A DNA stretch of 64,000 nucleotides, from positions 558,001 to 622,000 of the forward strand of contig NZ_CP084506.1 in the NCBI RefSeq assembly GCF_003113495.2. The letters run 5' to 3'. A program made the position numbers and the translations under genes. Every line of letters begins with the position of its first letter. Within the stretch, counting starts at the first letter, position 1. Of the stretch, positions 45,423-63,823 are shown piece after piece. Under the pieces are notes generated by a model. The model ran no database searches, had not been told where the DNA came from, and saw only the letters and a list, made by a program, of their open reading frames with translations. This DNA comes from Edwardsiella tarda ATCC 15947 = NBRC 105688. Its GTDB lineage: Bacteria > Pseudomonadota > Gammaproteobacteria > Enterobacterales > Enterobacteriaceae.

Positions 45423-45438
45423 TCGACAGTTATGTCGA
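45423..45438 (+). promoter_or_regulatory. candidate FhlA enhancer (hycA)
   Basis: This is the dyad TCGACA-GTTA-TGTCGA, extended to 10-bp arms (45419-45442), about 135 bp before the -24 element of the hycA sigma-54 promoter. The same dyad with 4-bp spacer occurs before fdhF and hycB. It could also act as the fhlA terminator stem, but no T-run follows. Confidence 0.65.
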
Positions 45439-45510
45439 CGCCGCTTGCCAGCGTGAGCGTGGCAGGTCAGCGCGCAGTCAGATTCGGCGATAAAGTCGCC
45501 ATCCTCGCCG

Positions 45511-45536
45511 AAATTAGTTATTAACGTTACTAATTT
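45511..45536 (+). repeat. inverted repeat in the hycA control region
   Basis: The arms AAATTAGT (45511-45518) and ACTAATTT (45529-45536) surround the small palindrome TAACGTTA. The repeat lies between the enhancer dyad and the -24 box, where a DNA-bending protein or a regulator could bind. Its role is unknown. Confidence 0.4.
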
Positions 45537-45573
45537 TCTGTAAAACATCATACAAATAATTAATAATTAAAGC

Positions 45574-45589
45574 TGGCATGTATCCTGCT
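45574..45589 (+). promoter_or_regulatory. sigma-54 promoter of hycA
   Basis: TGGCATGTATCCTGCT has the required GG at -24 and GC at -12 with exact 10-bp spacing between them. The hycA start is about 100 bp downstream. Confidence 0.8.
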
Positions 45590-45689
45590 TATTTATTACC
45601 GCAGAGGGAGCGATATATGCCTCCGTCTGGTGTGCGGCGCATCACATCGCGATGCGTACAATCTTTGGGAGTATGGTGGAGTATTTACT

Positions 45690-46160
45690 ATGAAGGTCAG
45701 CGAACTAACCGAGAAGTCGCTATTTATCCATAATAAAAATGAAAAACTGATGGCGCAGTGGGCGACCTATAAGAGCAGTCTCATTAAGGCGACCACCTCT
45801 TCCCGGCTGAAGATTTTCCATGAGTTCAGCTGTGGTGATGGCGACAGCGTCAACTTCACGGTCTTCGACCACTTTATGGTGGAGATCCGTCTGGCGGGCG
45901 AGTTTTACAGTAAGACGATCCAATATGGTTTGCGTCTGGATACGGGCGATGAGGCGCGTTTTGTCGAACTGGGACGGGCGAGCTTCGATGATGAGGGGAT
46001 GCTGGACGGCCGAGTCAACAACCGTGATCGGGATGGGGTACTGGAGCACTATCTGGAGAAGATCCAGTCGCTGTATGACACCCTGTACCACGCGATGCAG
46101 GATACCCGCCCATTGAATGAGGTGCTGTTAGCGCGTTGGGGCGCCACGGCTAGCGTCTGA
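45690..46160 (+). CDS. hycA: formate hydrogenlyase regulatory protein HycA
   Basis: HycA counteracts FhlA activation of the FHL genes in E. coli. From ATG 45690 (GGTGGAG about 9 nt upstream) it is 156 residues (E. coli 153). The C-terminal block DGRVNNRDRDGVLEHYLEKIQSLYD (residues about 106-130) closely matches the family, and the N-terminus keeps the EKSLFI..KNEKL.AQW pattern. In E. coli hycA is the first gene of the hyc operon; here it is a separate plus-strand unit next to fhlA and convergent with hypE, while hycB starts 18 kb away. Confidence 0.88.
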   Translation: MKVSELTEKSLFIHNKNEKLMAQWATYKSSLIKATTSSRLKIFHEFSCGDGDSVNFTVFDHFMVEIRLAGEFYSKTIQYGLRLDTGDEARFVELGRASFDDEGMLDGRVNNRDRDGVLEHYLEKIQSLYDTLYHAMQDTRPLNEVLLARWGATASV

Positions 46161-46305
46161 TGCGAACCGCCGTCGGCGTTTAAGGGGAAGCCTTCCCCAC
46201 TGATGCCGGCGTGGCCGGTTACGGCTCCCGCATCGCCGCCATCTGGCCCGATGGCGTGGGCGAAATCGACCGGGTGCGGGTGCACCCGGCCAAAGCTGCG
46301 TGGCA

Positions 46306-47337
46306 TCAACAGATGCGCGGCAGCGGTTCGCTGTGTGGCAGATCGAGCAGGCGTGCGGCGCCGAACAGGCCGACCAGACGCACCTGACGCCGATCGGTGG
46401 CGACCCCGATGGTGGCCGCATCGACGCCTAACGGGTGCGCGTGCAGGCAATCCAATACCGCCTGTTCCGCCTCCGGTGCGACGGCCAGCACCAGCTTGCC
46501 TTCGTTGGCGAAGTTGAGCGGCTCCAGGCCGAGCAGTTCACAGATGCCACGTACCGCATCCTTCACCGGCAGGCTCTTCTCGTTGACATCCATGCCGCAG
46601 CCGCTGGCTTGGGCAAACTCGTGCAGGATGGCGGTCACCCCACCGCGCGTCGCATCGCGTAGGGCGCGTACCCCAGGGATGTTACGCAGCGGGGCGATCA
46701 GCGGCGCCAGGACGGCACAGTCGCTGGAGAGTTGCGCTTCCAGTCCCAGCTTTTCCCGCAGGTTGAGGATGGTGGCGCCGTGATCCCCCAGCGTGCCGCT
46801 CACGATCAGACGATCGCCAGGCTGGATCTCGCTGGCGGCCCAACGGATATCCGCAGGAATGGCGCCGATCCCGGCGGTGTTGATGAAGAGCTTATCCGCC
46901 GCGCCGCGCTGCACAACCTTGGTGTCGCCAGTGACGATCTGGATGCCCGCCTCACGGGCGGTTTGCGCCATGCTCTGTACGATCTGTTCCAGATCGCGCA
47001 GTGGCAGCCCCTCTTCCAGGATGAAGCCGCAGGAGAGGTATTTGGGATGAGCGCCGCTGACCGCCAGGTCATTGGCGGTGCCGCAGACGGCCAGCTTGCC
47101 GATGTTACCGCCGGGGAAGAAGAGCGGATCGATCACATAGCTGTCGGTGGTAAAGGCCAAGCGGTCACCCTGCTGGTTAAAACTACACAGCGGCAGACGC
47201 GCCTGGTCTTCGCGCGCATTGAGCGCCGGATTATCAAACAACGGCAGAAACAGGCTCTCCAGCAATTGTTGCATTGCCAGGCCGCCGCTACCGTGCGCCA
47301 TGGTAATCACATCGTCTTCAGACCATTTACTACTCAC
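46306..47337 (-). CDS. hypE: hydrogenase maturation factor HypE
   Basis: HypE dehydrates its C-terminal thiocarboxamide to thiocyanate, the cyanide donor for the [NiFe] Fe(CN)2CO centre. The protein is 343 residues from a GTG start, 2 bp after hypD, and ends PRIC with the essential C-terminal Cys. The ATP-binding region TDSYVIDPLFFPGGNIGKLA and FILEEGLP blocks match the PurM-like fold. It is the last gene of hypABCDE. Confidence 0.96.
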   Translation of the reverse strand: MSSKWSEDDVITMAHGSGGLAMQQLLESLFLPLFDNPALNAREDQARLPLCSFNQQGDRLAFTTDSYVIDPLFFPGGNIGKLAVCGTANDLAVSGAHPKYLSCGFILEEGLPLRDLEQIVQSMAQTAREAGIQIVTGDTKVVQRGAADKLFINTAGIGAIPADIRWAASEIQPGDRLIVSGTLGDHGATILNLREKLGLEAQLSSDCAVLAPLIAPLRNIPGVRALRDATRGGVTAILHEFAQASGCGMDVNEKSLPVKDAVRGICELLGLEPLNFANEGKLVLAVAPEAEQAVLDCLHAHPLGVDAATIGVATDRRQVRLVGLFGAARLLDLPHSEPLPRIC

Positions 47338-47339
47338 GG

Positions 47340-48458
47340 TTATTGCTCCATTCCTCGACGATATTGGTAGAACGCCGCACAGGCCCCTTCCGAAGAGACC
47401 ATCAGTGCGCCAAAGGCATTCTGTGGGTTACAACGAGCGCCAAACAGCGGGCAATCCGCCGGTTTGCAGCGCCCGGTCAGGACATCGCCGCAACGTGCCT
47501 GTGGATCATCGGCGACGTGCTGGCTCTGCGGTTGGAAACGCCGCTCGGCATCGAACGCGGCGTAGGCCGGACTCAGGGCGACCCCGGAGTGTTCGATCTC
47601 ACCCAGGCCGCGCCATTCGCTGCGCTCACGGGTGACGAAGACCTCGTCTAACGCCTGCTGCGCCAGGGTATTGCCGCTATCGGGGACGATGCGGCGATAT
47701 TGGTTCTCTACCTCACAGCGTCCCTCGCACAGCTGCGCCAGCAACATGTCCAACGATTGCAGAATATCCAGCGGCTCGAAGCCGGTGATCACCAACGGCT
47801 TGTGGAACTCGTCGCAGATGAAGGCGTAGGGGTGGGCGCCGATCACCATGCTGACGTGCCCCGGTGCGATAAAGCCGTCGATGCGGACATCGGGCTGTTG
47901 CAACAGGCTGCGCAGGGTGGGGGTGATGGTGATGTGTTGGCAGAATACGCTGAAGTTATTGACGCCCTGGCGACGCGCCTGCTGCAGGGTGACCGCGGTG
48001 CTGGGCATGGTGGTTTCGAAGCCGAGGCCGAAGAAGACCACCTCACGGTCAGGTAGCTGTTGCGCCAGCGTCAGGGCGTCGAGCGGCGAGTACACGATGC
48101 GGACGTCCGCACCTTGGCGCTTGGCGTCTAGCAGGGAGCCGTTGCGTCCCGGGACACGCATGGCGTCGCCGAAGGTACAGAACACCACGCCGGGACGGCG
48201 GGCAATCTCGACGCATTGATCGATACGCCCCATCGGCAGCACACAGACCGGGCAACCCGGGCCATGGACAAACTCGATTTCCGGCGGTAGCAGCTGGTCG
48301 AGGCCAAACTTGAAGATGGCGTGTGTATGGCCACCGCACACCTCCATGATTTGTAAGGGTAGGCGGCAGTCGGCCGGTAGGTCGGCGACGCGCTGGCGGA
48401 TCCGCGCTAACAGCGCCTCGGCCAGTTGGGGATCGCGGAATTCATCAACAAACTGCAT
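47340..48458 (-). CDS. hypD: hydrogenase maturation factor HypD
   Basis: HypD is the Fe-S scaffold on which Fe(CN)2CO is assembled with HypC. The protein is 372 residues (E. coli 373). Conserved Cys motifs are visible: MEVCGGHTH (about 38-46), GPGCPVCV (about 66-73) and the C-terminal cluster with CGDVLTGRCKPADCPLFG.RCNPQNA. The start lies 3 bp from the hypC stop. Confidence 0.96.
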   Translation of the reverse strand: MQFVDEFRDPQLAEALLARIRQRVADLPADCRLPLQIMEVCGGHTHAIFKFGLDQLLPPEIEFVHGPGCPVCVLPMGRIDQCVEIARRPGVVFCTFGDAMRVPGRNGSLLDAKRQGADVRIVYSPLDALTLAQQLPDREVVFFGLGFETTMPSTAVTLQQARRQGVNNFSVFCQHITITPTLRSLLQQPDVRIDGFIAPGHVSMVIGAHPYAFICDEFHKPLVITGFEPLDILQSLDMLLAQLCEGRCEVENQYRRIVPDSGNTLAQQALDEVFVTRERSEWRGLGEIEHSGVALSPAYAAFDAERRFQPQSQHVADDPQARCGDVLTGRCKPADCPLFGARCNPQNAFGALMVSSEGACAAFYQYRRGMEQ

Positions 48459-48461
48459 CGA

Positions 48462-48754
48462 TCACTCCCCGCTGCGTGCCGCGCCGGCGCCGCCGCGCAT
48501 GAAATGCGCCACGTCGGCCTCAACCGCTTCCATCGCCTGTAAGGCCTCCAGAGTATCCTGTGCCTCTTGCTCGTCCAGTATGCTCATGGCGAAGCCGACA
48601 TGCACCAGTACCCACTGACCAAGCAGATCGCTCGGCGCCCCTTCACACACCAGCGCGATGTTGACTTCGCGCTTGACGCCGCAGACATCGACTTGCGCCA
48701 GCTGATGGATATCGTCGCCCACGGCGACCACTTTTCCCGGTATTCCCAGACACA

Positions 48755-48755
<1 letters not shown>
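48462..48755 (-). CDS. hypC: hydrogenase maturation chaperone HypC
   Basis: HypC carries the Fe(CN)2CO group and binds the large-subunit precursor (HycE). The ATG at 48755 gives 97 residues beginning MCLGIPGKV with the essential Cys2. The start overlaps the hypB stop by one base (TAATG); a longer frame to 48797 is rejected because the exposed N-terminal Cys is required. Confidence 0.95.
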
Positions 48756-49876
<1,121 letters not shown>

Positions 49877-49899
49877 AAGGGGTCTCCTGAGCGTTAAGG

Positions 49900-50241
49900 T
49901 TACTCAATCTCAATCTGTTTGATTTGCATGCTATCGCCGTCATCGACGCGCAGGTTATGGCTCTGGCAGTGCGGGCAACCGGCATCATGGCTGGTCACCG
50001 TGATGGGCTGGCTGCAACTCCAGCACCAGGCTTGCGCCGGGATGGTGTTGATATGCAGCGCGCAGCCCTCGGCTAGCGTACCGCGACAGACGATGTCAAA
50101 ACAGAAGGTTAAGGCGCTCTCCTCGATGCAGGAGAGCGCGCCGATGTCCAGCCAGACCGCGGTGACGCGCTGGGCGTCGCTGGCGCGCGCCTGGCGTTCG
50201 ATAATGTCAAATGCGCTTTGGCAAAGGGATAATTCATGCAT
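49900..50241 (-). CDS. hypA: hydrogenase nickel-insertion protein HypA
   Basis: HypA is the nickel metallochaperone partner of HypB. The protein is 113 residues; it begins MHEL with the Ni-binding His2 and has the zinc site of two CxxC pairs (CWSC about 73-76, CPHC about 89-92). It heads hypABCDE and follows hypF by about 70 bp. Confidence 0.96.
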
Positions 50242-50310
50242 GATCGTTCTTCTTTTGTTGTGCCGGCCTATCCTCGGGGAAAGCGGGCGGCTGAACTTTG
50301 ATGCGCGTCA

Positions 50311-52636
50311 TCAGTTCACCGATTCCTCTTCGCCGGATGGCGCATCAGCGGCGGAGATCGCATCATTTTGGCGATAAGCGGCGATGATCGCCTGGCCGAG
50401 CGCCAATGCACCGTCACCGGCGGGGAGGCGTTGGGGGAGTAGCAGGCGGTAGTCCGCCAGGCGCTCCTGCAACAGTTGGCGCAGCAGTCGATTGTGCAGC
50501 ACCCCGCCGGACAATACCAGCGTTTGGCACCCTTCCCGCGCGGCATGGTGACGCAGCAGCGCCGCCAGGCCATCGGCCAGTGCGCGGTGGAAGGCCAGCG
50601 CGCGCAGCGGGAGCGGGGCTTGCCAGCTGAGCCAATCGTGCCAGAAGTCCCCCATCGCCAACTCGCCTTGAGGGGTCAATCGCAGGGTGATGGGGGTCGC
50701 TTGCGGCCAGGCCTGCCAGGCTTGTGCCTCCAGGCGGCAGGCCGCCTCACCCTCGAAGCTGATCGCCTCGTGGCAGATGCCTAACGCCGCCGCCGCCGCG
50801 TCGAACAGACGGCCACAGGAGGAGGCGGGCGGGCAGTTGAGTCCCCGTTCGATCGCCTTAGCCAGCAGGGGCCAGTTCTTCTGCTGGAGGGCGTGTGTCT
50901 CCGGGTAGCGTTGCCAATCGGGGAGGAAACGCAGCAGTTGTGCCAGTAGGTTACGCCAGGGCTGGCGTGCGGCCAGATCTCCACCGGGCAGCGCCACCGC
51001 CGGCAGCCCACCCAGCCGGTGATAATCACGGTAGTCGACGCGGAGACACTCGCCGCCCCAGAACTCGCCCTCCTCGCCGTAACCGATACCGTCCAGTGCC
51101 AGGCCGATCAGCGGAGTCTGCTGCGGGGTGATGCCATGCTCGGCCATGCAGGCGACCAGATGAGCGTGATGATGTTGCACCGCAATCAACGGCAGCGCCT
51201 GTTGCTCGGCCAACTGCTGTGCCAGGCGGCGGCTGTGATAGCCGGGATGACGGTCGCAGGCGATGGCCTGCGGGGTGAATTGGTAGATCTGTTGTAGCAG
51301 TTGCCAAGTTTGGCGCATCTGCTGCTGGATACGCGCCTCCCCCAAATCACCGAGGTGTTGGCTGAGTAGGGCGCGCCCCTTGTGTAGCAGGCAGAAGGTA
51401 TTTTTCAGATCGCCGCCGACGGCGGCCACATCGGGCAACCGCTGAAAGGCCTCGGGGAGATCGAGCGTATCCGGCACATAGCCGCGTGCCCGGCGTAGCA
51501 TTTCGCTGCCGTCGGGATGGTAGCGCAGCAACGAATCGTCGGCGCGTTGTACGATGTCGCGGTTATGCATCAGCCACAGATCGGCGATGCCCTCCAGATC
51601 GCTCAACGCCTGGTCGTTGCTCAATGCCGGCGGTTGACCACTGGCATTGCCGGAGGTCATCACCAGCGGGCGGCCGAGGCGTGCCAGCAGCAGATGGTGC
51701 AGCGGGGTGCTGGGCAGCATCACGCCGACTTCATCCAGGCCGGGAGCGACCCCGGTCGGTACCGCGTCGGAGGCGGGGATCAGGACGATGGGCGCCGCGG
51801 GGCTGTTCAACAGGGCCACGAGTCCCGCCTCCGGCGTGGTGCGGCAGTAGCGTGCCAGCCAGTCTATTCCCGGCAACATCAGGGCCAGCGGCTTCGCCGG
51901 ACGCTGCTTACGGGTACGTAGGCGGGCGATGGCGGCGGCATCGCTGGCGTCGCAGGCGAGGTGAAATCCGCCTAATCCCTTGATGGCGACGATACCTCCG
52001 CTCTCCAGTACCTGGCAGACGGCCTGCCAAGCCTCCTCACCGTCGCGCCGCGCCTGCCCGCCCGCCTCACAGGGCCCACAGCGTTGGGCCACACAGGGCA
52101 CAGGCGGTCGGCTGGGCGTGAAAGCGGCGATCGGCGGGATCGCCATATTCGCGCGCGCAACGCGGGCAGAGTGGAAAGTCGGCCATGGCGGTGTTGGGCC
52201 GATCGTAGGGCATGCGGCGGATGATGGTGAAGCGTGGGCCACAGTGGGTGCAATTGATAAAGGGGTAGCCATGGCGTCGATTGCGCGGATCGCGCATCTC
52301 CGCCAGGCAGTGCGGGCAGGTGGCGGCATCGGGCACGATCTGGGTGTCCATGGCTCCCTGGCGACTTTCGACGATGCGAAAACCGTCGGCGGGGCAGGTC
52401 GGCCAAGGTTGGGGCTCGATGCTATCGATGCGTGCCAGCGGCGGGCAGTCGGCATACAGCCGTTGGCAGAGCGCCGCGAGATCCAGCGGTAGCCGCACCA
52501 CCAGCCAGACGCCGCCGGCATCGTTGCTGACCTCGCCATGTAGCCCCATCTCGTGGGCTATCTGCCAGACATAGGGGCGAAAACCGACGCCCTGAACCTT
52601 TCCTTTTATCCGTAGTGCGATGGCGTTGTGTTCCAA
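50311..52636 (-). pseudogene. hypF: carbamoyltransferase HypF, split by a frameshift
   Basis: HypF converts carbamoyl phosphate to the carbamoyl-adenylate that provides cyanide via HypE. Together the two frames code for a full-length HypF (about 750 residues). The N-terminal part starts at TTG 52636 and has the acylphosphatase domain ([14 protein letters not shown]) and zinc fingers ([30 protein letters not shown]); it stops at TGA 52067-52069. Coding continues in another frame from about 52085 downward ([14 protein letters not shown] onward) with the YrdC-like and Kae1-like domains to 50311. One extra base, or two missing, in about 52067-52090 explains this. No slippery signal is evident. 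Either a true inactivating mutation or a sequencing error. Confidence 0.85.
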
Positions 52637-52947
52637 AAAAATAACTCCGAGCCAGCGCGCCGCGGGGCTGGCGATGTTGCTATATAAGCGGGAAGCGCGG
52701 CGTTACGCCCTACGCGCTGAGGACGACGGTCTTGCGATGGTGGCGGCACCCTACCGTATAACCAGGCAGCCTACACGCAAATCGCGCCGCGTTAAATAAA
52801 GCGAACGGTGAATAAATTGTCGCAAATGGGCCGCGGGGGACGCAATGCGGCATGTCATATCTGAGGGATAGTTCTCGCTTTCGTGGCGGGCGAGCCGCCC
52901 AGACGAACGCCCCCGCGCAACGCGGCGCGCGGCGGGGGAGGCGGCGA
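52637..52947 (-). other. hydN-hypF spacer
   Basis: The 311-bp stretch has no gene. A GC-rich imperfect hairpin (CCCCCGC ... GCGGGGG, about 52909-52938) directly follows hydN and may terminate it. I found no convincing sigma-54 promoter or TCGACA dyad for hypF here, so how hypF is transcribed is unclear. Confidence 0.5.
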
Positions 52948-53490
52948 TTACAGCAGATCGCCGAGATTATCGAAGGCGGCGCGTTGGCGGCGCTCTTGGA
53001 TCAGCGCCTGCATGGCATTGCGGTCGATCAGGCGCAGCGCCTCGGTCGGGCAGGCCTCTACGCAGGCTGGACCGTTGGCGCGGTGGTGGCACAGATCGCA
53101 CTTATTGGCCTCGGCCTTGCTGCCGCTGAGGCACCCTTGGCTGCCATAGCGTTGCGTCACCGCCGTGGTGACCACCTCCATGGTGCCGTAGGGGCAGGCG
53201 ACCACGCAGGTCTTACAACCGATGCATTTCTCCTGGTCAACGCAGATAAAGTCCTGTTGACGGCTGATGGCGCCATTGGGGCAGACATTGGCACAGGGGG
53301 CATCTTCGCACTGGCGGCAGAGAATCGCCGTGCTGATGTTGTCTCCCTTGATGACGTGAATGCGTGGCGTGAAGTTGTCGCGGCTGAGGTTATGCAGCTC
53401 GCTCTCTTCCCGATGGGCCATGACGCAGGCGATTTCGCAGGTACGGCAGCCGATGCATTTCTTGGGATCCGCAATGACAAACCGATTCAT
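52948..53490 (-). CDS. hydN: ferredoxin-like electron carrier HydN
   Basis: HydN is an iron-sulfur protein that supports formate dehydrogenase H activity. The protein is 180 residues with four [4Fe-4S] Cys sets: CIGCRTCEIAC (about 12-22), CRQCEDAPCANVC (about 58-70), CIGCKTCVVAC (about 89-99) and CDLCHHRANGPACVEAC (about 132-148). It is close to HycB in sequence but lies next to fdhF and hypF, as HydN lies next to hypF in E. coli. Confidence 0.93.
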   Translation of the reverse strand: MNRFVIADPKKCIGCRTCEIACVMAHREESELHNLSRDNFTPRIHVIKGDNISTAILCRQCEDAPCANVCPNGAISRQQDFICVDQEKCIGCKTCVVACPYGTMEVVTTAVTQRYGSQGCLSGSKAEANKCDLCHHRANGPACVEACPTEALRLIDRNAMQALIQERRQRAAFDNLGDLL

Positions 53491-53532
53491 TCAATTACTC
53501 CCGATATCGTTATAGTGTCGCGCCGTATCGTG

Positions 53533-53668: not shown

Positions 53669-55813
53669 TCAACCCTCTGCGCTTTCGCGTAGATGACGCT
53701 TAATGCTGTCGTACTCGCGCACCACATAGGCTTCCGCCGCCGCTTGATCGGCGATGGCTTCCAGGGTGACGGCGCAGTACTTGTATTCCGGCGTCTTGGT
53801 GATCGGACTCAAGTTCTCGGCGACCAGTTCGTTACAGGCGCCGATCCACCACTGGTAGGTCATGTAGACCGCCCCGCGGTTGGCACGTTCGCTGACGGAC
53901 GCCCGGCTGATGACCTTGCCTTGGCGTGAGCGGATCCACACCAGATCTTGATCGCGGATGCCGAAGGTCTTGGCGTCTGCGGTGTTGATCTGAACGTAGC
54001 CCGGTTCGTCGGCCAGCGCGGCCAGCGCCTTACAGTTACCGGTCATGGAGCGGCAGGAGTAATGGCCGACTTCACGTACCGTCGCCAGCACCAGCGGATA
54101 GTCGTCGCTGACGCGATCGATCGGCGGACGCCATTCGCAGGTGAAGAACTGGCCTTTGCCATTCGGCGTATCGAACTTACCGCCCTGGTACAGATATTGC
54201 GTGCCGGGGCTATCCAGGGTCGGGCACGGCCACTGGACATAGGCCAGATCCGCCATCTTCTCGTACGTGGCACCATAGTAGATCGGGCACAGCTCGCGCA
54301 GCTCGTCCCAAATCTCCTGGGTGTTGTGGTAGTGCATCGGGTAGCCCATCGCCGTTGACATCAGGCTGATGATCTCCCAGTCACGCTTCACGTCACCCTC
54401 GGGCTCTACCGCCTTATAGAAACGCTGGAAGCCGCGATCCGCCGAGGTATAGACCCCTTCATGCTCGCCCCAGCTGGTGGCCGGGAAGATCACGTCGGCG
54501 ATGGCCGCGGTCTTGGTCATGAAGATATCTTGTACGATCAACAGATCGAGCTGTTCGAAGGTGCGGCGAATGGTGGCCAGATCCGGTTCGGTTTGCAGCG
54601 GATCTTCGCCCATCACATAGTGCGCCTTCAGCAGACCGTGCTCGATGTTGTGCGGCACCTCGCTCAGGGCATAACCGATCTTATCGTTCAGTTTCTCGAC
54701 GCCCCAGGCCTTGGCGAATTTCTCCAACACCTCCGGCTGGTTAACGTACTGGTAGCCGGGGAAGGTGTTGGGCAGTGCGCCCATGTCACAGGCCCCCTGC
54801 ACGTTGTTCTGGCCGCGTACCGGGCCGACACCGACGTAAGGCTTGCCCAGGTTGCCGGTCAGCAACGCGATGCTGGTCAGGGTACGGACGGTCTCCACCC
54901 CTTGGTAGAATTGGGTCACACCCATTCCCCACAGGATGGTGGCGGTCGGCGCCTTGGCGTACATGCGCGCCGTCTCGCGGATCATCTGTGCGCTGATGCC
55001 GGTGGTCTCTTCCACCGACTCCGGGGTATAGGTGGCGACCAGATCGCGGAAGGTCTCGAACGCTTCCGTATGCTGCTCGATGAAGGCCCGGTCATGCAGG
55101 TTTTCGGCGATGATCACCTGCGCCATGGCGTTCAGGAACGCGATATTGGAGCCGTTTTTCAGCGGCACGTGAATATCGGCGATGCGCGCGGTCTCGATGC
55201 GCCGCGGATCGCAGACAATGATTTTTGCCCCTTTCGCCTTCGCCTTGATGATACGGCGCGCGACGATGGGGTGAGAGTCCGCGGCATTGTAGCCGAAGAC
55301 AAAAATACAGTCGGTATCTTCAATTTCGACGATGGAGTTGCTCATGGCGCCGTTACCGACCGATCGCTGCAGACCTGCAACCGAAGGGCCGTGTCAGACG
55401 CGTGCGCAACAGTCGATATTGTTAGTACCGATCGCCGCACGGGCAAACTTTTGCATCACGTAGTTGGCTTCGTTGCCGGGACCGCGCGATGAACCGGTGG
55501 TCATGATGGCATCGGGACCATACTTCTCTTTGACCGCCAGCAGTCGGGAGCTGGCGAAGGCGATCGCCTCGTCCCAGGAAACCGCTTCCAGTTTGCCGCC
55601 GCGCTCGCGACGGATCATCGGTGACTTCAGGCGAGGCGTCAGGATCTTGGTGTCGTGGATAAAATCCCAGCCGTAATACCCTTTCAGGCACAGCTCACCC
55701 TGGTTCGTCACGCCATTCGCCCCTTCGGCGCGAATGATCCTGCCGTTATCCACCACCAGGTTGATTTTGCAACCTGAGGCGCAATAAGGGCAGACCGTGA
55801 TGACTTTTTTCAT
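53669..55813 (-). CDS. fdhF: formate dehydrogenase H, selenocysteine-containing
   Basis: FdhF oxidises formate to CO2 and feeds electrons to the FHL hydrogenase through HycB. ATG 55813 (GGAG 8 nt upstream) to the stop at 53669 gives 714 residues (E. coli 715) when the in-frame TGA at 55394-55396 is read as Sec140; the surrounding residues CCARV-U-HGPSVAGL match the E. coli active site. The N-terminal [4Fe-4S] Cys set is CPYCASGC plus ELCLKGYYGW, followed by the molybdopterin bis-MGD domains. A SECIS hairpin follows the UGA. It is transcribed from its own sigma-54 promoter and sits just downstream of hycI. Standard callers split it into two frames. Confidence 0.97.
55349..55396 (-). promoter_or_regulatory. 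bacterial SECIS element of fdhF
   Basis: Directly after the UGA the mRNA can form the SelB-binding hairpin with the apical GGTTGCAGGTCTGCA core (GGUC loop), nearly the same as in E. coli fdhF. Confidence 0.9.
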
Positions 55814-55960
55814 CAACATTGCTCCTATTATTATGATCACCGGCGGCTTATGGCCCATCCGATGTAACGATGCTACAGAGAGCCGGGGCGCATCGCGTTG
55901 CTGCCCCGCCCGGTGACGGACGGCGTCATGACCTCTCCGCCGCGCTCTCCCGTTTATATA

Positions 55961-55976
55961 TGCATGATGCGTGCCA
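55961..55976 (-). promoter_or_regulatory. sigma-54 promoter of fdhF
   Basis: On the minus strand TGGCACGCATCATGCA is a near-perfect -24/-12 element (consensus TGGCACG-N4-TTGCA). It lies about 150 bp before the fdhF start. Confidence 0.92.
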
Positions 55977-56068
55977 GGTTTTCCCATCAAGCCGAGTGGC
56001 TTAATTGCCTGAACTATAAAGGCAGGTGGGGGAAGCCCGTGATGATCCGCATCAAAGTGCCGACGGAC

Positions 56069-56084
56069 TCGACAAAAGTGTCGA
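56069..56084 (-). promoter_or_regulatory. candidate FhlA enhancer (fdhF)
   Basis: The dyad TCGACA-AAAG-TGTCGA lies 93 bp upstream of the fdhF -24 box and just past the hycI stop codon. The identical 16-mer (opposite strand) is found before hycB. Confidence 0.75.
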
Positions 56085-56101
56085 TCCCGTCGTCGCGTGA
56101 C

Positions 56102-56587: not shown

Positions 56588-57023
56588 TGTGTCGTTTCAC
56601 CATCAGATAGATTGTCGGTTCATTCTCAATCAGCCGCAGGGCGTCGATCAGCGCGTGACTCCACGCCTGCTGCTGGGCGGTCATCGTCGGCCGCGCCCGA
56701 TCCAGGGCACAGGCCAGCAGATGGGTGTGGCTACTGTCGATGGTGATCTCGCCGAAGCGTAGCAGCCCCGCCAGCTTACGTCGTGCCTCCCCCTCCTCCA
56801 ACTGACCGATCCAGTCGCGATAGTCGCTCAGGGGCAGGGAGAGACAGGGCTTCAGGCAGTCGATCACCCCCAGGTGGTGGCCGATGGCCAGGCTGTAGTA
56901 GATCACCTCACGGGCCGCCGGCGGTGTCGCCGCTTCCTCTTCGGCCTGTTGAATAAACTTGGCGTTGAGGATGTGGAACACCACCGTCGGATCGGGGAAG
57001 TAGGCGGCGGCGCGATCGTTCAT
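56580..57023 (-). CDS. hycH: formate hydrogenlyase maturation protein HycH
   Basis: HycH is needed for maturation of the hydrogenase 3 large subunit in E. coli; its exact role is unclear. From ATG 57023 it is 147 residues (E. coli 136). The block [19 protein letters not shown] near residues 49-67 is highly conserved and the C-terminus reads YLMVKRHNG. The start overlaps hycG by 4 bp. Confidence 0.93.
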
Positions 57024-57844
57024 CGTATGCCTCCGTTGGGGGCGGCCTGGTTGCATACCTGCAACAGACGGCCCATCACCTCGTTTAAGCGTGGATCATT
57101 CTCGTCGGCGAGGAAGCGCGCCAGGCGCTCCTCCACGCTCAGCGCATCGCGGCTGGCCAGCAGGGTCATGAATTTGTCGGCCAGCTGGCGGCCATAACGG
57201 TAGCCGGACATGCGCCGTGCCTCACGGTCGATCAACACGCGCAGGGGTTGCGGGATCGCCGGATGCAGGATGGCGGCCTGCTCGTCTTCGCCTTGCGGGT
57301 GGTGCTCCGCCTTGAGTTTTTGATCCAGTAAGCCGAGCGCCACGGCGAAGCCATACAGCGTCGCCGCTGGCGTTGGCGGGCAACCAGGGATATAGACATC
57401 CACCGGCACGATCTTGTCGGTGCCGCCCCAGACGCAGTAGAGATCGTGGAAGATGCCGCCGCTACAGCCGCAGGCACCGTATGAGATCACGATCTTGGGA
57501 TCGGGGGCCGATTGGTAGGCGCGTAGCGCCGGGACGCGCATCGCACGGGTGACGGCACCGGTAAACAGCAGGATGTCGGCGTGGCGTGGCGAGGCGACCA
57601 CTTTGATACCGAAGCGCTCGGCATCGAACAGCGGCGAGATGGCGGCGAAGATCTCGATTTCGCAGCCGTTGCAGCCGCCGCAGTCGACGCGGTAGACGTA
57701 GGCGGAGCGGCGGATGTCCTTCAGCAGGGTCTGCTTCAGGCGAGCGGCCTGCTCATCCAGGGTGATCGGGATGGGTTGGCCGTTGGCGTCGCGCGGACCG
57801 ATTAGATGACCTTGTGCGGACGGGGTCGTGAGGATGTGGCTCAT
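57020..57844 (-). CDS. hycG: hydrogenase 3 small subunit HycG
   Basis: HycG is the [4Fe-4S]-bearing small subunit that pairs with HycE (homologous to complex I NuoB). The protein is 274 residues (E. coli 255). Cluster Cys residues appear in [11 protein letters not shown] (about 54-64), [10 protein letters not shown] (about 120-129) and YIPGCPPTP (about 151-159). The stop overlaps hycH by 4 bp and the start overlaps hycF by 4 bp, showing tight coupling. Confidence 0.96.
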
Positions 57845-58398
57845 TGTGACGCCTCCGGCATCAGGTGACGACTCAGGGTAATGCGTGTCGTCGGAATGGT
57901 GTTGTGTTTCTGCTTACAGGCCGGACAGGTTTCGAACTGAGCGCGGCGCGCCTCGGCCTGTTCGGCGCTGAGTTGACCCGCCTGCACCAGCAGGGCCATG
58001 GCGTAGTCGATCTCCTTCTGGGCGGCGTAGGGGGCACCGCACTCGACACAATGGCAGATGGCGAAGTCGGCGCGTTGTTGTAGATCCTCCTTGCGCCACA
58101 CCGCCAGTTCAAACTCCGGTGAGAGCACGATGGCGGCGGTGGGGCAGACCTCCTCACAGCGGGCGCAGAAGATGCAGCGTCCCAGGTTGAGCGACCAGCG
58201 GCGCAGCCCGTTGGCGACGTCGTTCTCCATGGTCAAGGCGTTGGCCGGACAGGCAGCGGTGCAGGCGCCGCAGGCGATGCACTGGCGGGCGTCATATTGC
58301 GGCTTGCCGCGAAAGTTGGGGTCGACATCCAGCGGCCGTGCCGGGTAGGCGACGGTGGCGTGGCGATGCCGTAGGGCAGTTTTGAGTAGTTTCAACAT
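57841..58398 (-). CDS. hycF: formate hydrogenlyase ferredoxin subunit HycF
   Basis: HycF is a NuoI-like polyferredoxin of the FHL complex. The protein is 185 residues (E. coli 180) with two [4Fe-4S] motifs, [12 protein letters not shown] (about 40-51) and [12 protein letters not shown] (about 75-86), and a further CxxC-type pair set (CHCVECG and CPAC) in the C-terminal part. Confidence 0.95.
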
Positions 58399-58417
58399 GG
58401 TCTCGGGTCTCCGGCGA

Positions 58418-60118
58418 TCACTTCAGCGGTGAATCCTTGCGTTCCAGTCCGTAGCGCTCGATCTCCTTGTAGGGAACGGTCACCGACTTGCGGCGGTTGA
58501 CGTCCACCAGGGTGACGCGGTCGGTACAGGAGTAGCAGGGGTCGAGGCTGCCGATGATCAACGGAGCATCGGACACGGTGTTGCCGCGTAACATGTAGCG
58601 CAGGGTCGGCCAGTTGGCGTAGGTCGCCGCCCGACAGCGCCAGCGGTACAGCTTCTGGTTGTCGCCGGTCATCGACCAGTGGATGTCGTCGCCGCGCGGC
58701 GCCTCGGTGAAGCCCAGGGCGAAACGGTGCGGCACATAGTTGAAGCCTTCGACGGCCAGTGGGCCGCCCGGCAGATTATCCAGGCCGAACTCGATCATAT
58801 TGAGGGCGGTGAACACCTCGTTGATGCGCACCTTGACGCGTGAGATGACGTCACAGCCCTGTTCGCTGTGCACCGTCATCGGCAGCAGATCGTACCCGGC
58901 GAACGGGTGGTCGGCACGGGTGTCGCGTGCGTGGCCGCTGGCGCGTACCATCGGGCCGACGTTACTGAAGTCGCGCGCGATCTGCGGGTCGAGGCGGCCG
59001 ATGCCGACGGTGCGTTGCTCGATGTTGGGGGTACTGAACAGGATGTCGATCAGCGCCTTCACCTCGGCGCGCATCTCGGCGGCCAGCTGGCGCGTGGCGA
59101 TCATATCCGCTTTCAGCATGTCGCGGCGGATGCCGCCAATCAGGTTCAGGCCGTAGGTTTTGCGCGCGCCGGTGAGGATCTCCGCCATCTTCATCGACTT
59201 CTCGCGTACGCGGAAGAATTGCATGAAGCCGGCGTCGAAACCGACGAAGTGGCAAGAGAGTCCCAGGTTGAGCAGGTGACTGTGCAACCGCTCCACCTCC
59301 AACAGGATCGAGCGGATGGCCTTGGCGCGCAACGGTACCTCGATGCCTAACGCATTCTCCACCGAGCTGGTGTAGGCGGTGCTGTGAGCGAAGCCGCAGA
59401 TGCCGCAAACGCGATCGGAGAGGAAGGTGACTTCGTTGTAGCCCATGCGGGTCTCCGCCAGCTTCTCCATGCCGCGATGGACATAGAACAGGCGGTAGTC
59501 GGCATCGACAATGTCTTCGCCATCGACGAATAGCCGGAAGTGGCCCGGTTCGTCGGAGGTGATGTGTAGTGGGCCGATGGGGACGATCTTGCCGCTGCCG
59601 CTCTCGTTAACGAAGGGGTAGGTCTCCTGGTCGGTGGTCGGCGCCGGACGCTGGCGATAGTCCATGGCATCCTTACGCAGCGGATAGAGATCGTCCGGCC
59701 AATCGTCCGGCAGCACCAGACGGCGCTCATCCGGCAGGCCGACGGCGATCAGCCCATACATGTCGCGCACCTCGCGCTCGCCCCAGACGGCGGCGGGGAC
59801 ACGCGGGGTGACGGAGGGGTATTCGCGCGTGTTGGCGTCGACCAGCGCCTTGACGGTGATCCAGCACTTGGTGCCTTGCTCCATCGACAAGACATAGTAG
59901 ACCGCATAGCTGCCGCACAGCGGGCGCTCGTCGTTGCCGAACAGGACCGAGAGCCAGCCGCCTTGCTGGTAGTACAGGTATTCGACCACCTCCGGCAGCA
60001 TGCCGGTCTTCACCGTGATGGTGGCCTGCGTCGCGGTCTGCCAGCTCTCGTCGAGGATGGCGTGGGGGAACTGCTGGCGCAGCGCCGCAATGTAGTGTTG
60101 TCCGATGTGTTGAGTCAT
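58418..60118 (-). CDS. hycE: hydrogenase 3 large subunit HycE
   Basis: HycE is the [NiFe] catalytic subunit that evolves hydrogen, with a NuoC-like N-terminal part (about 1-170) fused to a NuoD-like part. The protein is 566 residues (E. coli 569). The nickel ligands are in RVCGICGFAHS (about 237-247) and DPCYSCTDR (about 526-534). After that Arg comes a 32-residue tail, VTLVDVNRRKS...DSPLK, which HycI removes, the same length as in E. coli. Maturation needs HypA-F. Confidence 0.97.
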   Translation of the reverse strand: MTQHIGQHYIAALRQQFPHAILDESWQTATQATITVKTGMLPEVVEYLYYQQGGWLSVLFGNDERPLCGSYAVYYVLSMEQGTKCWITVKALVDANTREYPSVTPRVPAAVWGEREVRDMYGLIAVGLPDERRLVLPDDWPDDLYPLRKDAMDYRQRPAPTTDQETYPFVNESGSGKIVPIGPLHITSDEPGHFRLFVDGEDIVDADYRLFYVHRGMEKLAETRMGYNEVTFLSDRVCGICGFAHSTAYTSSVENALGIEVPLRAKAIRSILLEVERLHSHLLNLGLSCHFVGFDAGFMQFFRVREKSMKMAEILTGARKTYGLNLIGGIRRDMLKADMIATRQLAAEMRAEVKALIDILFSTPNIEQRTVGIGRLDPQIARDFSNVGPMVRASGHARDTRADHPFAGYDLLPMTVHSEQGCDVISRVKVRINEVFTALNMIEFGLDNLPGGPLAVEGFNYVPHRFALGFTEAPRGDDIHWSMTGDNQKLYRWRCRAATYANWPTLRYMLRGNTVSDAPLIIGSLDPCYSCTDRVTLVDVNRRKSVTVPYKEIERYGLERKDSPLK

Positions 60119-60193
60119 TTTACTTTGCGGCCTTCTGAGTTAGGGCAAAAAAGGAGAAACGGGTCGCCGAAATAGGGAATGTCATGGTTCACC

Positions 60194-61129
60194 TCACGCG
60201 ATCAGCCAAGAGAAGAAGGCCAGTAGCGCCAGGCCGAAGCCGGCCCAGGTGGTGTAGCCGGTCTTCAGGAAGCGTAGCCGGGCCATGCTGTTTTCCAGTA
60301 GGGCGACGATGACGATGCCGACGAGCAACTTCACCAGTGCGATCACTGTCGCCAGCAGCAGGGCGCCAGCACTCAGGGTGGCGCTCTGCCCCCAGGGGAA
60401 GAACACGGCGATGAACAGTTGCAAGACCACCAGCTGTTTCAGGCCGATGCCCAGCTTGAGGATGCCCAGCCCTGGGCCTGCGTATTCGGTCAGCGGCCCC
60501 TCTTGGAGCTCCTGCTCGGCTTCGGCCAGATCGAAGGGCAACTTGCCCATCTCGATGAAGGTGGCGAAGGCACAGGCCAATAGCGCCAAGGCCAGCGCCA
60601 GCGAGGCGTGTTGCGACCAGTCACGGACATAATCGCCCATCAGACCCAGATTGCTGGAGCCCGCCAGCAGCGCGGTGACCCACAACGCCAACATCAGGAT
60701 CGGTTCGACCAGGATGCCGAGCAGCGACTCGCGGCTGGCACCGATGGCGCTAAACGGGCTACCGGTATCCAATCCCGCCAGGATGAAGAAGAAGCGGGCG
60801 ACGGCGAACAGATAGACCAGGGTGATGACATCGCCCAACGCTGGCAGCGGGGTGCTGCGAGTCACCAACGGCAGGGCACTGGCGATGGTCAGCATGGTGC
60901 CGACCATGACGTATGGCATCATCTGGAACAGGGCTCCGCTACAGTGTGGCGCGATGTTCTGGCGGCGCAGCAGTTTGCCGATGTCCCGGTACTCTTGCAG
61001 GAGGCCGGGGCCACGTCGACTGTGCATCCGCGCGCGCAATACCCGCGAGATGCCGCAGGCTAGCGGTGCCAACGCCAGCAGGATCAGCGCCTGGAACAGC
61101 GCCAGCAGCAGAATGGAAAGTGAACTCAT
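60194..61129 (-). CDS. hycD: formate hydrogenlyase membrane subunit HycD
   Basis: HycD is the NuoH-like membrane anchor of FHL, with about eight transmembrane helices. Three ATGs occur in a row at 61135, 61132 and 61129; the third is spaced best from GAGGAG and gives 311 residues (E. coli 307). Conserved cytosolic loops RRGPGLLQEYRDIGKLL, GASRESLLGILVEP and EMGKLPFDLAEAEQELQEGPLTEYAG are present. Confidence 0.95.
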   Translation of the reverse strand: MSSLSILLLALFQALILLALAPLACGISRVLRARMHSRRGPGLLQEYRDIGKLLRRQNIAPHCSGALFQMMPYVMVGTMLTIASALPLVTRSTPLPALGDVITLVYLFAVARFFFILAGLDTGSPFSAIGASRESLLGILVEPILMLALWVTALLAGSSNLGLMGDYVRDWSQHASLALALALLACAFATFIEMGKLPFDLAEAEQELQEGPLTEYAGPGLGILKLGIGLKQLVVLQLFIAVFFPWGQSATLSAGALLLATVIALVKLLVGIVIVALLENSMARLRFLKTGYTTWAGFGLALLAFFSWLIA

Positions 61130-61139
61130 CATCATCTCC

Positions 61140-63041
61140 TCAGGAGAACACGGCGACTAGCAGCAGCGCCATTTCGCACAGCGCCAGTACCGGGTAGACA
61201 CGCAGGGCGCCCTCGTTCAGCAGTCCGCCGCACAGCGGCGCCGGGTTGCAGAGGCGACGTAGGGTGAACAGCGGGGCAAACAGGACACGCAGTGGCTGGG
61301 CGAAACCGCCAGCGGTGACCACCATGCCCGGTTCGTGGCCGTAGCCGCAGGTCCAGGCGTCGCCGTGGCGGCGCGCCGGCAGGCGGCTGCTGCGATACAG
61401 GGCGCTCAGCAGCAGAGGTAGCAGTGGGAAGGCCAGCAACAGCAGGGCGATCAGCGGTGGTGACAGCAGGGTCATGTTGCTGCTGCCCGGCGACATGATG
61501 GCGCCCATGGTCAGCGCGTCGTTACCCATCACCAGTTGCAGCGTGTTGGCGCAGAGGTGTAGCAACGCGGGGACGATCCACGGTGCGCCGACACCGAACA
61601 GCACACAGGCCAGGCTGAGCAGTAGCGCGGGCAGTAACAGGCTCCAGGGCGTGCGGCCCGGATTGGCGGCCGCCTCGCTACGCGCCGCGCCGAGGAAGGT
61701 CATGGCGAAGATCTTCGCCACGCACATCACCGCCAACGCTCCGGTGATCGCCAGGGCAACCATGGCCAGCGGGGCCAGCAGCCGCAACGCCCCAGGGCTT
61801 TGCTGGCTCAGACTGAACAGGGACTGGTAGGTGTACCATTCGCTGACGAAGCCGTTGAGCGGCGGCAGGGCCGCCATCGACATCAGGGCCAATAACATCA
61901 GTAGACCGGTCAGCGGCATGCGGCGTAGCAGTCCCCCCATCTTATCGATGTCGTGTAATCCGGTGGCATGCATCACGGCGCCGGCACCGAAGAATAACCC
62001 GCCCTTAAACAGGGTGTGGTTGATCAGATGGAATAGCCCGGCGAGCAGGCCCATGACGGCCAGCAGTGGGTTACCTAGGCTGAAACCGATGACGCAGGCC
62101 GTTAGGCCGAGCAGGATGATGCCGCTGTTTTCGATGGTGTGATAGGCCAGCAGGCGGCGCAGGTCGTGCTCAGCCAGGGCATACAACCCCCCGATGAACG
62201 CGGTGACGGCGCCGACGATCAGCAGCAGCAGTCCCCACCACAGCGGAGGGACACCGAGCCAGTCGATGCTGAGCTTGAGGAGACCGAACAGGCCGATCTT
62301 GAGCATCACGCTGGCAAACAGCGCCGCCGCCGGTGCCGGGGCGTTAGCGTGTAGCTCGGGGATCCAGCCGTGCAGCGGTACCAGGCCGGTGACGATGCCG
62401 AAGCCGAGCAGCCCGAGCAGCAGGATCGCCGCTTGTTGACCGTGGCTAAGGAGCGCCAGATGGAACTCGCTCAATACCAGGGTGCCACTGGCGCGCCACA
62501 GTAGCCAGAAGCAGAGCAGCAGCGCCAGAGAGCCGAGGCGAGACATCAGCCAATAGAGTCCGGCGGCGCGGCGCGCCTTGGCGTTGCCCCCCAGCCAGAC
62601 CAGCAGCGCCGCGCTCAGGCTCATCAGCTCCAACATCACCATAAAGGTCGGGGCGTCGTTACATACCACCAGCAGGCTGATGGCGGCGCTGAGCAGGTTC
62701 ATCAATCCAGCGTGGCAGGCGGCCTTGCCGCCGGCGTGCGGCGTCGTACCGAAGGCGTACAGGGCGCAGAGCAGGCTCAGTAACGAGGTGAGCAGCAGCA
62801 TCAGGCTGTTTAGTGGACTGAACAGTAATGGGACGCTGCCGAATAACAGCGTGCTGGGAGAGAGCGGTGACGCCTGCAGCAGCAGCGAGGCGGCGGCAAC
62901 GCTGCCGCATAGGCCCGCCAGGATCCCGCCCGTGGCGGCGAGGCGTGCGGCGCAACGGCCAAGGCCGCCGAGTGCCAGCGCGATGACGGCGCTGATCAGA
63001 TACAGTGCCAGCATCAGATTAAACAGTTGCAGAATACTCAT
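61140..63041 (-). CDS. hycC: formate hydrogenlyase membrane subunit HycC
   Basis: HycC is the antiporter-like (NuoL/Mrp type) membrane subunit with about 16 hydrophobic segments. The protein is 633 residues (E. coli 608). The antiporter core has LLAYHTIENSGIILLGL and HLINHTLFKGGLFFGAGAV, with the conserved Lys/His of the family. The start overlaps the hycB stop by 4 bp. Confidence 0.95.
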   Translation of the reverse strand: MSILQLFNLMLALYLISAVIALALGGLGRCAARLAATGGILAGLCGSVAAASLLLQASPLSPSTLLFGSVPLLFSPLNSLMLLLTSLLSLLCALYAFGTTPHAGGKAACHAGLMNLLSAAISLLVVCNDAPTFMVMLELMSLSAALLVWLGGNAKARRAAGLYWLMSRLGSLALLLCFWLLWRASGTLVLSEFHLALLSHGQQAAILLLGLLGFGIVTGLVPLHGWIPELHANAPAPAAALFASVMLKIGLFGLLKLSIDWLGVPPLWWGLLLLIVGAVTAFIGGLYALAEHDLRRLLAYHTIENSGIILLGLTACVIGFSLGNPLLAVMGLLAGLFHLINHTLFKGGLFFGAGAVMHATGLHDIDKMGGLLRRMPLTGLLMLLALMSMAALPPLNGFVSEWYTYQSLFSLSQQSPGALRLLAPLAMVALAITGALAVMCVAKIFAMTFLGAARSEAAANPGRTPWSLLLPALLLSLACVLFGVGAPWIVPALLHLCANTLQLVMGNDALTMGAIMSPGSSNMTLLSPPLIALLLLAFPLLPLLLSALYRSSRLPARRHGDAWTCGYGHEPGMVVTAGGFAQPLRVLFAPLFTLRRLCNPAPLCGGLLNEGALRVYPVLALCEMALLLVAVFS

Positions 63042-63652
63042 TGGGCGTCATTTCCCCCGGATAGGCTTGCGAGCGCCAGCAGATCGGCGCGTTGGGCATC
63101 GAGAACGTGTAGACGTTTGGCGGCGCTGGCAGCCTCCAGGCGGCGCTCATCCACCAACATGATGGCGTGGGTCGGACAGGCGCGAACACAGGCGGGGCCT
63201 GCCTCGCTAAACTGGCACAGGTCGCACTTCACCGCGATGCTGCGGATGCCGGGATACCAATCTAAGAAGGGGCCAACGCTGAGGTGCGCCGGTGGCGCCG
63301 GGGGGGCCAGGGGCGAGTTGCTGTTAGCCGGAATATGCAACGGTTTGCTGCCGGCCAAGGTGATGGCGCCGAAGGGGCAGGCGATACCGCACAGCTTGCA
63401 GCCGACGCACAGGCTTTCATTGAGCTGAACGGCGCCGTCTTGGTGGGTAATGGCGTTAACCGGGCAAACCAGGGCGCAGGGTGCATCTTCGCAGTGGTGG
63501 CACATCTGGGGCGCCGACTCATGGCTGGTCCTGACCAGCGTCAGGCGCGGTTGTGCCTGGAGACCTTGCGCCTCGTGCTCTTGCGCGCAGGCGGCCATGC
63601 AGGTATTGCACCCGATGCACAGTCGGGGATCCGCAATCACAAAGCGGTTCAT
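63038..63652 (-). CDS. hycB: formate hydrogenlyase Fe-S subunit HycB
   Basis: HycB links FdhF to the hydrogenase module. The protein is 204 residues (E. coli 203) with four [4Fe-4S] Cys sets: CIGCNTCMAAC (about 12-22), CHHCEDAPCALVC (about 52-64), CVGCKLCGIAC (about 82-92) and CDLCQFSEAGPACVRAC (about 141-157). It is the first gene of the hycBCDEFGHI operon, which here lacks hycA. Confidence 0.95.
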   Translation of the reverse strand: MNRFVIADPRLCIGCNTCMAACAQEHEAQGLQAQPRLTLVRTSHESAPQMCHHCEDAPCALVCPVNAITHQDGAVQLNESLCVGCKLCGIACPFGAITLAGSKPLHIPANSNSPLAPPAPPAHLSVGPFLDWYPGIRSIAVKCDLCQFSEAGPACVRACPTHAIMLVDERRLEAASAAKRLHVLDAQRADLLALASLSGGNDAQ

Positions 63653-63697
63653 GTTATGTCCTCAGAGACAGACTACAAAAAAGATCCGCCCGAGCTA

Positions 63698-63713
63698 AGC
63701 ATAAACCGTGCCA
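63698..63713 (-). promoter_or_regulatory. sigma-54 promoter of hycB
   Basis: On the minus strand TGGCACGGTTTATGCT is a strong -24/-12 element, 46-61 bp before the hycB start. Confidence 0.92.
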
Positions 63714-63807
63714 ATTATATTGATATTATTTATTTCATTTAAAACAATGCATTGTGATATTCCACCTCGCAAGGTGGATGGACAATGTCGATATCCGGCA
63801 TGGCATA

Positions 63808-63823
63808 TCGACACTTTTGTCGA
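63808..63823 (-). promoter_or_regulatory. candidate FhlA enhancer (hycB)
   Basis: The dyad TCGACA-CTTT-TGTCGA lies 95 bp upstream of the hycB -24 box. Additional half sites lie close by (TGTCGA at 63786-63791 and TCGACA at 63820-63825), which suggests a multi-site enhancer. Confidence 0.75.

Follow-up and report, generated by a model that had tools for sequence, protein, structure and literature searches.

In E. coli, upstream activating sites of FhlA have reportedly been footprinted by the Boeck group at fdhF, hyc/hyp and hydN. Other activators, NtrC, NifA and NorR, bind remote palindromic enhancers and act on sigma-54 promoters by looping. We examined a 64,000-nucleotide stretch (the window) of Edwardsiella tarda ATCC 15947 = NBRC 105688 (contig NZ_CP084506.1, positions 558,001 to 622,000, forward strand) in which a dyad, TCGACA-N4-TGTCGA, precedes three sigma-54 promoters of the FHL cluster. 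The window dyads resemble the NtrC, NifA and NorR enhancers in being remote palindromes at such promoters; the half-sites of those three activators are different ones. With the E. coli FhlA sites they share the half-site TGWCR/YGWCA, the 4-base register found at fdhF and hydN, and the position upstream of a sigma-54 element. The E. coli dyads read ACGTCA-N4-TGACGA (fdhF) and TCGTCA-N4-TGTCGA (hydN), whereas the arms of the window dyads are perfect. E. coli-type hyc/hyp promoters carry mostly arrays of the same half-site, not the dyad, and of 30 hycA loci only 9 had a dyad (≤1 mismatch) ahead of some sigma-54-like site, which in 8 of these was the hycA element itself. When a 25 kb region of E. 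coli K-12 was scanned at ≤1 mismatch, no dyad plus sigma-54 match was found; the hydN dyad was present, with its sigma-54 element below the cut-off.

A published FhlA matrix was derived from 13 promoters (PMC7658346, Table 2). As tabulated there, it has the register and half-sites of the dyad, but as a detector it failed, ranking the window dyads only 73rd to 455th of 127,974 positions.

Dyads and sigma-54 elements in the window

The features on which the analysis rests are as follows.

43260..45401, + strand: fhlA, formate-responsive sigma-54 activator (NF011958, 887.2 bits, cut-off 830)
45418..45443, + strand: perfect inverted repeat with 11-bp arms around the hycA dyad, a possible 3'-end hairpin of the fhlA mRNA
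45423..45438, + strand: exact dyad TCGACA-GTTA-TGTCGA of the hycA promoter, candidate FhlA site, 21 nt past the fhlA stop codon
45574..45589, + strand: sigma-54 -24/-12 element TGGCATGTATCCTGCT of hycA, matrix score 14.8 bits
45690..46160, + strand: hycA, FHL regulator (NF007567; HycA 212.7 bits, cut-off 180)
53669..55807, - strand: fdhF, formate dehydrogenase alpha subunit (TIGR01591), in-frame TGA read as selenocysteine
55961..55976, - strand: sigma-54 element TGGCACGCATCATGCA of fdhF, matrix score 16.8 bits
56069..56084, - strand: exact dyad of fdhF, candidate FhlA site, 17 nt past the hycI stop codon
63038..63652, - strand: hycB-like Fe-S protein, gene 1 of the hyc operon, 63% identity to E. 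coli HycB
63698..63713, - strand: sigma-54 element TGGCACGGTTTATGCT of hycB, matrix score 16.8 bits
63808..63823, - strand: exact dyad of the hycB operon, candidate FhlA site, 4 nt past the stop codon of a LacI-type gene

Aligned with E. coli FhlA over 698 positions, the regulator encoded beside hycA was 53% identical, and 27 of 35 residues matched at the C-terminal helix-turn-helix end, as counted on the alignment. Its scores against the NCBIfam models of NifA (395.1, cut-off 528.85) and NorR (381.7, cut-off 476) did not reach the cut-offs. The fhlA start codon is unsettled, and searches were run with 43266-45398. HydN was also identified by NCBIfam (281.2 bits, cut-off 260).

An earlier note, made from the sequence alone, had placed a shared dyad and a sigma-54 element at each of these three promoters. 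Both assignments were borne out: the three 16-mers were the only matches to TCGACA-N4-TGTCGA without mismatch in the window, and the elements had the scores listed above on a matrix whose highest possible score is 21.3. The fdhF and hycB dyads are, as that note also said, one 16-mer on opposite strands, each the reverse complement of the other. Its distances of about 135, 93 and 95 bp needed a slight correction, since 135 bases separate dyad and element at hycA but 92 were counted at fdhF and 94 at hycB (start to start, 151, 108 and 110); the dyad lies upstream in all three cases. Half-site-like words occur near the hycA and hycB dyads, and the fdhF dyad has no further half-site alongside. Scanning the spacers between dyad and promoter for IHF sites yielded one candidate with one mismatch in each of hycA and hycB, about the level of chance, and none in fdhF.

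Specificity of the dyad in the window and the genome

In 300 mononucleotide shuffles of the window the mean number of exact copies was 0.003 and the maximum 1, and at ≤3 mismatches the window held 48 matches compared with 25.2 ± 4.5 in dinucleotide shuffles. The sigma-54 scores associated with the three FHL dyads (14.8-16.8) exceeded the 99% quantile for random window positions, 12.4. Sigma-54-like stretches above 14 bits were also found at 17113, 50930 and 54186, with no exact dyad near any of them.

The earlier note had proposed scanning the genome for the dyad near -24/-12 elements, and the outcome agreed with its expectation: the 3.8 Mb genome contains the dyad three times, always at FHL sigma-54 promoters, with no random scatter, and a control pattern read backwards occurs once. 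When the pattern was relaxed to WCGWCA-N4-TGWCGW, six sites were obtained, and only the hycA, fdhF and hycB copies had a sigma-54 element nearby.

Conservation across the Enterobacteriaceae

The hycA dyad is exact in E. hoshinae, E. piscicida, E. anguillarum and Hafnia alvei and has two mismatches in E. ictaluri, while copies of the fdhF and hycB dyads with one mismatch are kept in E. piscicida, E. anguillarum and E. ictaluri. Hafnia alvei has five exact dyads, four of them at the sigma-54 elements of hycB, fdhF, hydN and hycA. Across the family, we took the region of about 1.2 kb ahead of the best fdhF match and counted the relaxed pattern (≤1 mismatch) where a sigma-54 element followed it. 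This pattern, which was drawn up after viewing the same loci on which it was counted, was present in 75 of 79 FhlA-encoding Enterobacteriaceae genomes and in none of 13 with fdhF and no FhlA match at E≤1e-100. Most of these 13 genomes are devoid of the sigma-54 element as well, so an activator that always travels together with FhlA would give the same co-occurrence. The combination was not found in four of the 79 (G156, G029, G053 and G117). In 20 rounds of a shuffle control, 0-1 of 83 loci matched per round. Furthermore, when the sigma-54 site was picked first and the strict pattern was used, 25, 43 and 79 of 81 loci matched at ≤1, 2 and 3 mismatches, with 0.02, 0.28 and 3.64 expected by chance.

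Further features define the site more closely. The central two bases were A/T in all 19 FHL-linked exact dyads compared with 3 of 26 other exact dyads. The distance from dyad to -24 box tends to shift by about whole helical turns, giving a start-to-start series of about 77, 87, 97, 110, 121, 141 and 151 bp. In addition, extra half-sites were frequent at -5 (42 of the 79 family loci) and +27 (38). Titles and abstract openings on FhlA sites, on FhlA in Edwardsiella and on helical phasing at sigma-54 enhancers, a route that leaves subscription journals mostly uncovered, showed no paper addressing the matter.

Site claims are confined to the Enterobacteriaceae. Across the order, we also looked for the strict dyad with TGGCA lying 61-121 bp further on. 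This approach was rejected, since it matched 41 of 394 genomes and the control pattern matched 31, leaving little or no excess; matches upstream of an fdhF match were seen only in G000 (2), G029 (C14) and G040.

Hairpins, other regulators and FhlA

Each dyad starts 4-21 nt past a stop codon, and its main role might therefore be that of a 3'-end hairpin or terminator for the gene upstream (fhlA, hycI or the LacI-type gene). RNA folding is compatible with this at hycA (45400-45460, -34.6 kcal/mol, z -4.99) and hycB (z -5.38) and less markedly so at fdhF (z -2.09, 9 of 200 shuffles as good). However, an intrinsic terminator combines a GC-rich hairpin with a following T-run, and at the hycA copy, the only one scanned, the hairpin is present and no terminator-like T-run was found. 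Pairing continues beyond the dyad for 4-9 contiguous pairs in all five Edwardsiella hycA copies, and for 6 and 5 pairs at the fdhF-type loci of G077 and G061, yet flank complementarity over the 79 fdhF-type loci was 0.16-0.34 per position, roughly chance, and Hafnia fhlA has a separate hairpin ahead of its dyad. Termination would also leave the fixed arms, the A/T centre and the helical steps to the -24 box unexplained. We rejected it as the main function of the dyads and regard it as very improbable.

A narrower proposal is that at hycA a single shared sequence serves both as the FhlA site and as the end hairpin of the fhlA transcript. The long arms of the five Edwardsiella copies point this way, as does a paired G-C to A-T substitution between the window and E. 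piscicida arms, although palindromic operators keep symmetric changes too and comparable additional pairing is seen at G077 and G061. The E. ictaluri operator has degenerated to TCGGCA-N4-TGTCGG, while the changes keep G-U pairs and the RNA stem persists. With the T-run missing from the window copy, such dual use seems unlikely, but it is a good deal more plausible than termination as the main role. As for the protein, binding by one other than FhlA, whether a regulator of anaerobic metabolism or a different sigma-54 activator, would be compatible with the sequence, and our regulator-site scans covered IHF alone; against this, every exact copy in the genome is at an FHL promoter, the dyad co-occurs with fhlA, and one gene matched FhlA at E≤1e-100 among the 5 of 15 first-look candidates that were scored. 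We consider this the least probable of the alternatives.

Each dyad is thus very probably an enhancer, or upstream activating site, of FhlA, a reading well supported at the level of sequence by uniqueness, sigma-54 linkage, conservation, co-occurrence with fhlA and stepwise spacing. The earlier note had judged the dyad most likely to be the sequence that FhlA recognises in this organism; the family counts favour FhlA, and the restriction to this organism is slightly too narrow, because the same half-site occurs in many Enterobacteriaceae, everted at fdhF, and the matrix tabulated in PMC7658346 has the same register. Elements of this kind are known already; what is added is a further genome and a more precise definition that holds across the family.

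Proposed mechanism and implications

By analogy with known FhlA, its helix-turn-helix domains would recognise the two everted half-sites, TCGACA and TGTCGA, across the A/T-rich centre, and formate-loaded FhlA would oligomerise at the dyad. Looping of the 92-135 bp spacer could then bring FhlA into contact with the sigma-54 form of RNA polymerase bound at the -24/-12 element, dyad and polymerase staying on one helix face, and FhlA would open the promoter with ATP. In Edwardsiella, one regulator may in this way activate the hyc operon and fdhF, perhaps together with the genes that follow fdhF, and may switch on hycA from a separate promoter beside fhlA. Since HycA is named as an antagonist of the system, FhlA-driven hycA would give negative feedback. 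For the organism, this points to a single formate switch that would govern both hyc and fdhF and, separately, the gene of the antagonist, hycA.

More tentatively, and with rather less than even confidence, we propose that a perfect 16-bp everted, A/T-centred dyad can by itself make up a complete FhlA enhancer that works in either orientation, the fdhF dyad of the window being a case in point; that in relatives of E. coli the dyad decays and satellite half-sites are added at fixed offsets; that selection keeps dyad and -24 box on one helix face, with the spacer changing by whole turns; and that the Edwardsiella hycA copy doubles as the fhlA end hairpin. The natural spacer series offers a ready-made test of whether activator and polymerase need the same helical face.

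The definition of the FhlA site across the family, by arms, A/T centre and helical spacing, is now sharp and testable. The published matrix lacks the sharpness needed to pick out the Edwardsiella copies, and the new definition allows the formate regulon to be read from genomes. Besides the exact copies, the Edwardsiella genome contains 20 near-dyads that differ at one position and another two that fit the relaxed pattern, and none was a convincing further regulon member when scored for sigma-54 elements: the best score at 50-175 bp was 12.7 bits at one site, followed by 9.9 and then 8.1 or less. The highest-scoring of these sites (L190) is a dyad with one mismatch whose sigma-54-like match lies 117 bp away.

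The dyad at the FHL promoters

The window was re-scanned for the dyad TCGACA-N4-TGTCGA and for sigma-54 (-24/-12) elements. The three dyads and three elements of the earlier note were found where it had placed them; its spacing of 135 bp to the -24 box also stood, while those of about 93 and 95 proved to be 92 and 94 intervening bp.

45423-45438, hycA dyad; sigma-54 element 45574-45589, forward strand
45690-46160, hycA, adjoining fhlA, with its own sigma-54 promoter and detached from the hyc operon
48755-49876, frame whose N-terminus is a very long run rich in histidine, presumably HypB by position and appearance
52948-53490, hydN, behind fdhF
56069-56084, fdhF dyad; sigma-54 element 55961-55976, reverse strand
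63652 down to 56102, hyc genes in order of frames, ending with hycI
63808-63823, hycB dyad; sigma-54 element 63698-63713, reverse strand

FhlA (which shares 95% identity with its E. hoshinae counterpart), HycA and HydN each scored above their own NCBIfam cut-offs, as did FdhF, its TGA read as selenocysteine, above that for formate dehydrogenase alpha; most of the individual hyc names are presumptive, assigned from gene order.

The earlier note had proposed that the dyad is most likely the FhlA site and had suggested a genome scan for it near -24/-12 elements, and that scan agreed: the three copies were the only exact ones in the whole 3,799,645-base genome, and window shuffles gave a mean of 0.003. 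With up to one mismatch, 23 sites were found genome-wide, 20 of them away from FHL promoters, against 18 for a control (the pattern read backwards); the relaxed pattern WCGWCA-N4-TGWCGW gave six, including the three FHL dyads, against 8 for its control. At the 20 non-FHL near-dyads and two extra relaxed sites, the best sigma-54 scores 50-175 bp away on either strand were 12.7 and 9.9 bits and the rest at most 8.1, compared with 14.8, 16.8 and 16.8 bits at the FHL dyads and a 99% quantile of 12.4 bits at 400 random window positions.

Conservation in relatives

Gene names in relatives were verified by tblastn with window proteins. E. hoshinae has exact dyads at hycA and fdhF, a one-mismatch dyad at hycB and one further exact copy elsewhere. 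The hycA dyad is exact and the other two carry one mismatch in E. piscicida and E. anguillarum; E. ictaluri, with no exact copy genome-wide, has one mismatch at fdhF and hycB and two at hycA. Hafnia alvei has five exact dyads, four of which precede the sigma-54 elements of hycB, fdhF, hydN and hycA. There, an exact dyad (locus L066:1333) belongs to a promoter of hydN's own, and hydN is followed by a second fdhF-like gene, whereas the window lacks such a promoter and its hydN has neither its own dyad nor a strong sigma-54 element. The hyc operon of E. coli, unlike that of the window, begins with hycA. The dyad stays with the promoters when the cluster is rearranged. In locus L067 (828-2893), two LacI-type regulator genes (one scanned) terminate immediately upstream of the hycB promoter; in E. 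coli the end of ascG directly precedes hydN.

Co-occurrence with FhlA

The N-terminus of FdhF (E<=1e-40) matched in 93 of 198 Enterobacteriaceae genomes, and these included all 80 with FhlA (E<=1e-100). The 1.2 kb or so preceding the best fdhF match was extracted from 92 of the 93 (all but G170), and likewise for only four second fdhF copies, chosen for exact dyads already seen nearby. In 79/83 loci of FhlA-positive genomes, or 75/79 without the four chosen copies, a sigma-54 element stood downstream of a relaxed dyad with <=1 mismatch; none of the 13 FhlA-negative genomes with fdhF showed the pair over the same 1.2 kb, and dinucleotide shuffles never yielded more than one positive among 83 (20 rounds). 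In G029, one of the four misses, an exact dyad does lie upstream of fdhF. Since the relaxed pattern had been devised on the same loci, the count was redone with the earlier note's pattern, picking the best sigma-54 site first. At <=1, 2 and 3 mismatches, 25, 43 and 79 of 81 FhlA-positive loci were positive (83 minus two too short, the four chosen copies retained; expected 0.02, 0.28 and 3.64), as were 0, 0 and 1 of the 13 FhlA-negative genomes.

In 55 of the 79 positive loci, no more than 250 bp separated the sigma-54 element from fdhF. In the other 24 the element was more distant and is probably the promoter of a hydN-fdhF pair, because a HydN-like frame precedes fdhF in every one. In L073 (genome G095), the fdhF promoter including the dyad is duplicated, and the first copy precedes a fragment matching 92 residues of the FdhF query.

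The four central bases were unconstrained in all patterns used. The middle two were A or T in 19/19 FHL-linked exact dyads versus 3/26 other exact dyads (Fisher 6e-10); the G033 copy, some 20 kb away from a hycA match, was classed among the latter.

Spacing, half-sites and proposed mechanism

Start-to-start distances to the -24 box clustered at about 77, 87, 97, 110, 121 and 141, with one at 65, over 60 distinct distance/dyad/-24 combinations (Rayleigh R = 0.72 at period 11.0); that of the window hycA was 151. On 27 distinct values, including hycA, hycB and hydN distances entered by hand, R was 0.58, matched by 1 of 5000 random sets. In G070 and G193, of one genus, the same dyad differs in spacing by 12 bp. 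Because the genomes are related, the number of loci overstates that of independent changes; the spacing likely changes by whole helical turns.

Around the dyad, the 79 loci hold 96 additional half-sites (WCGWCA or TGWCGW) against 17.2 expected, many of them at fixed offsets such as -5 (42) and +27 (38). The window fdhF dyad has none, and half-site-like words lie close to the hycA and hycB copies. What counts against the simplest reading is that the N4 dyad is absent from most E. coli-type hyc/hyp promoters; ten examples show the same half-site repeated in arrays, both direct and inverted. The dyad (<=1 mismatch) preceded any sigma-54-like site in 9/30 hycA loci and the hycA element in 8/30. 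L205 (G485, a different family of the order) holds an exact dyad with half-site-like words after it; within the 1.6 kb examined, no sigma-54 element exceeded 12.5 bits.

Binding, looping and ATP-driven opening are known behaviour of FhlA and its class. By analogy, FhlA would bind the dyad, and DNA looping would be followed by ATP-driven opening of sigma-54 polymerase, a scheme that partly follows PMC11291172. The published FhlA matrix (PMC7658346), built from 13 promoters, reads TGWC-N6-GWCA; its register equals YGWCA-N4-TGWCR, and the window dyads score modestly.

Each window dyad starts 4-21 nt 3' of a stop codon and could fold as RNA. Such a hairpin is possible as a second role of the hycA dyad, whose Edwardsiella copies have 4-9 additional pairs outside it, with no T-run after the window copy. 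As the main role it is unlikely. Complementarity also continues, with interruptions, past the window fdhF and hycB dyads, and it extends beyond the dyad in G077 and G061; the wider family shows no such extension. At E. ictaluri hycA (L002:12160-12190; compare window 45418-45443), the FhlA-site letters are lost (TCGGCA-N4-TGTCGG) and the RNA stem is retained through G-U pairs.
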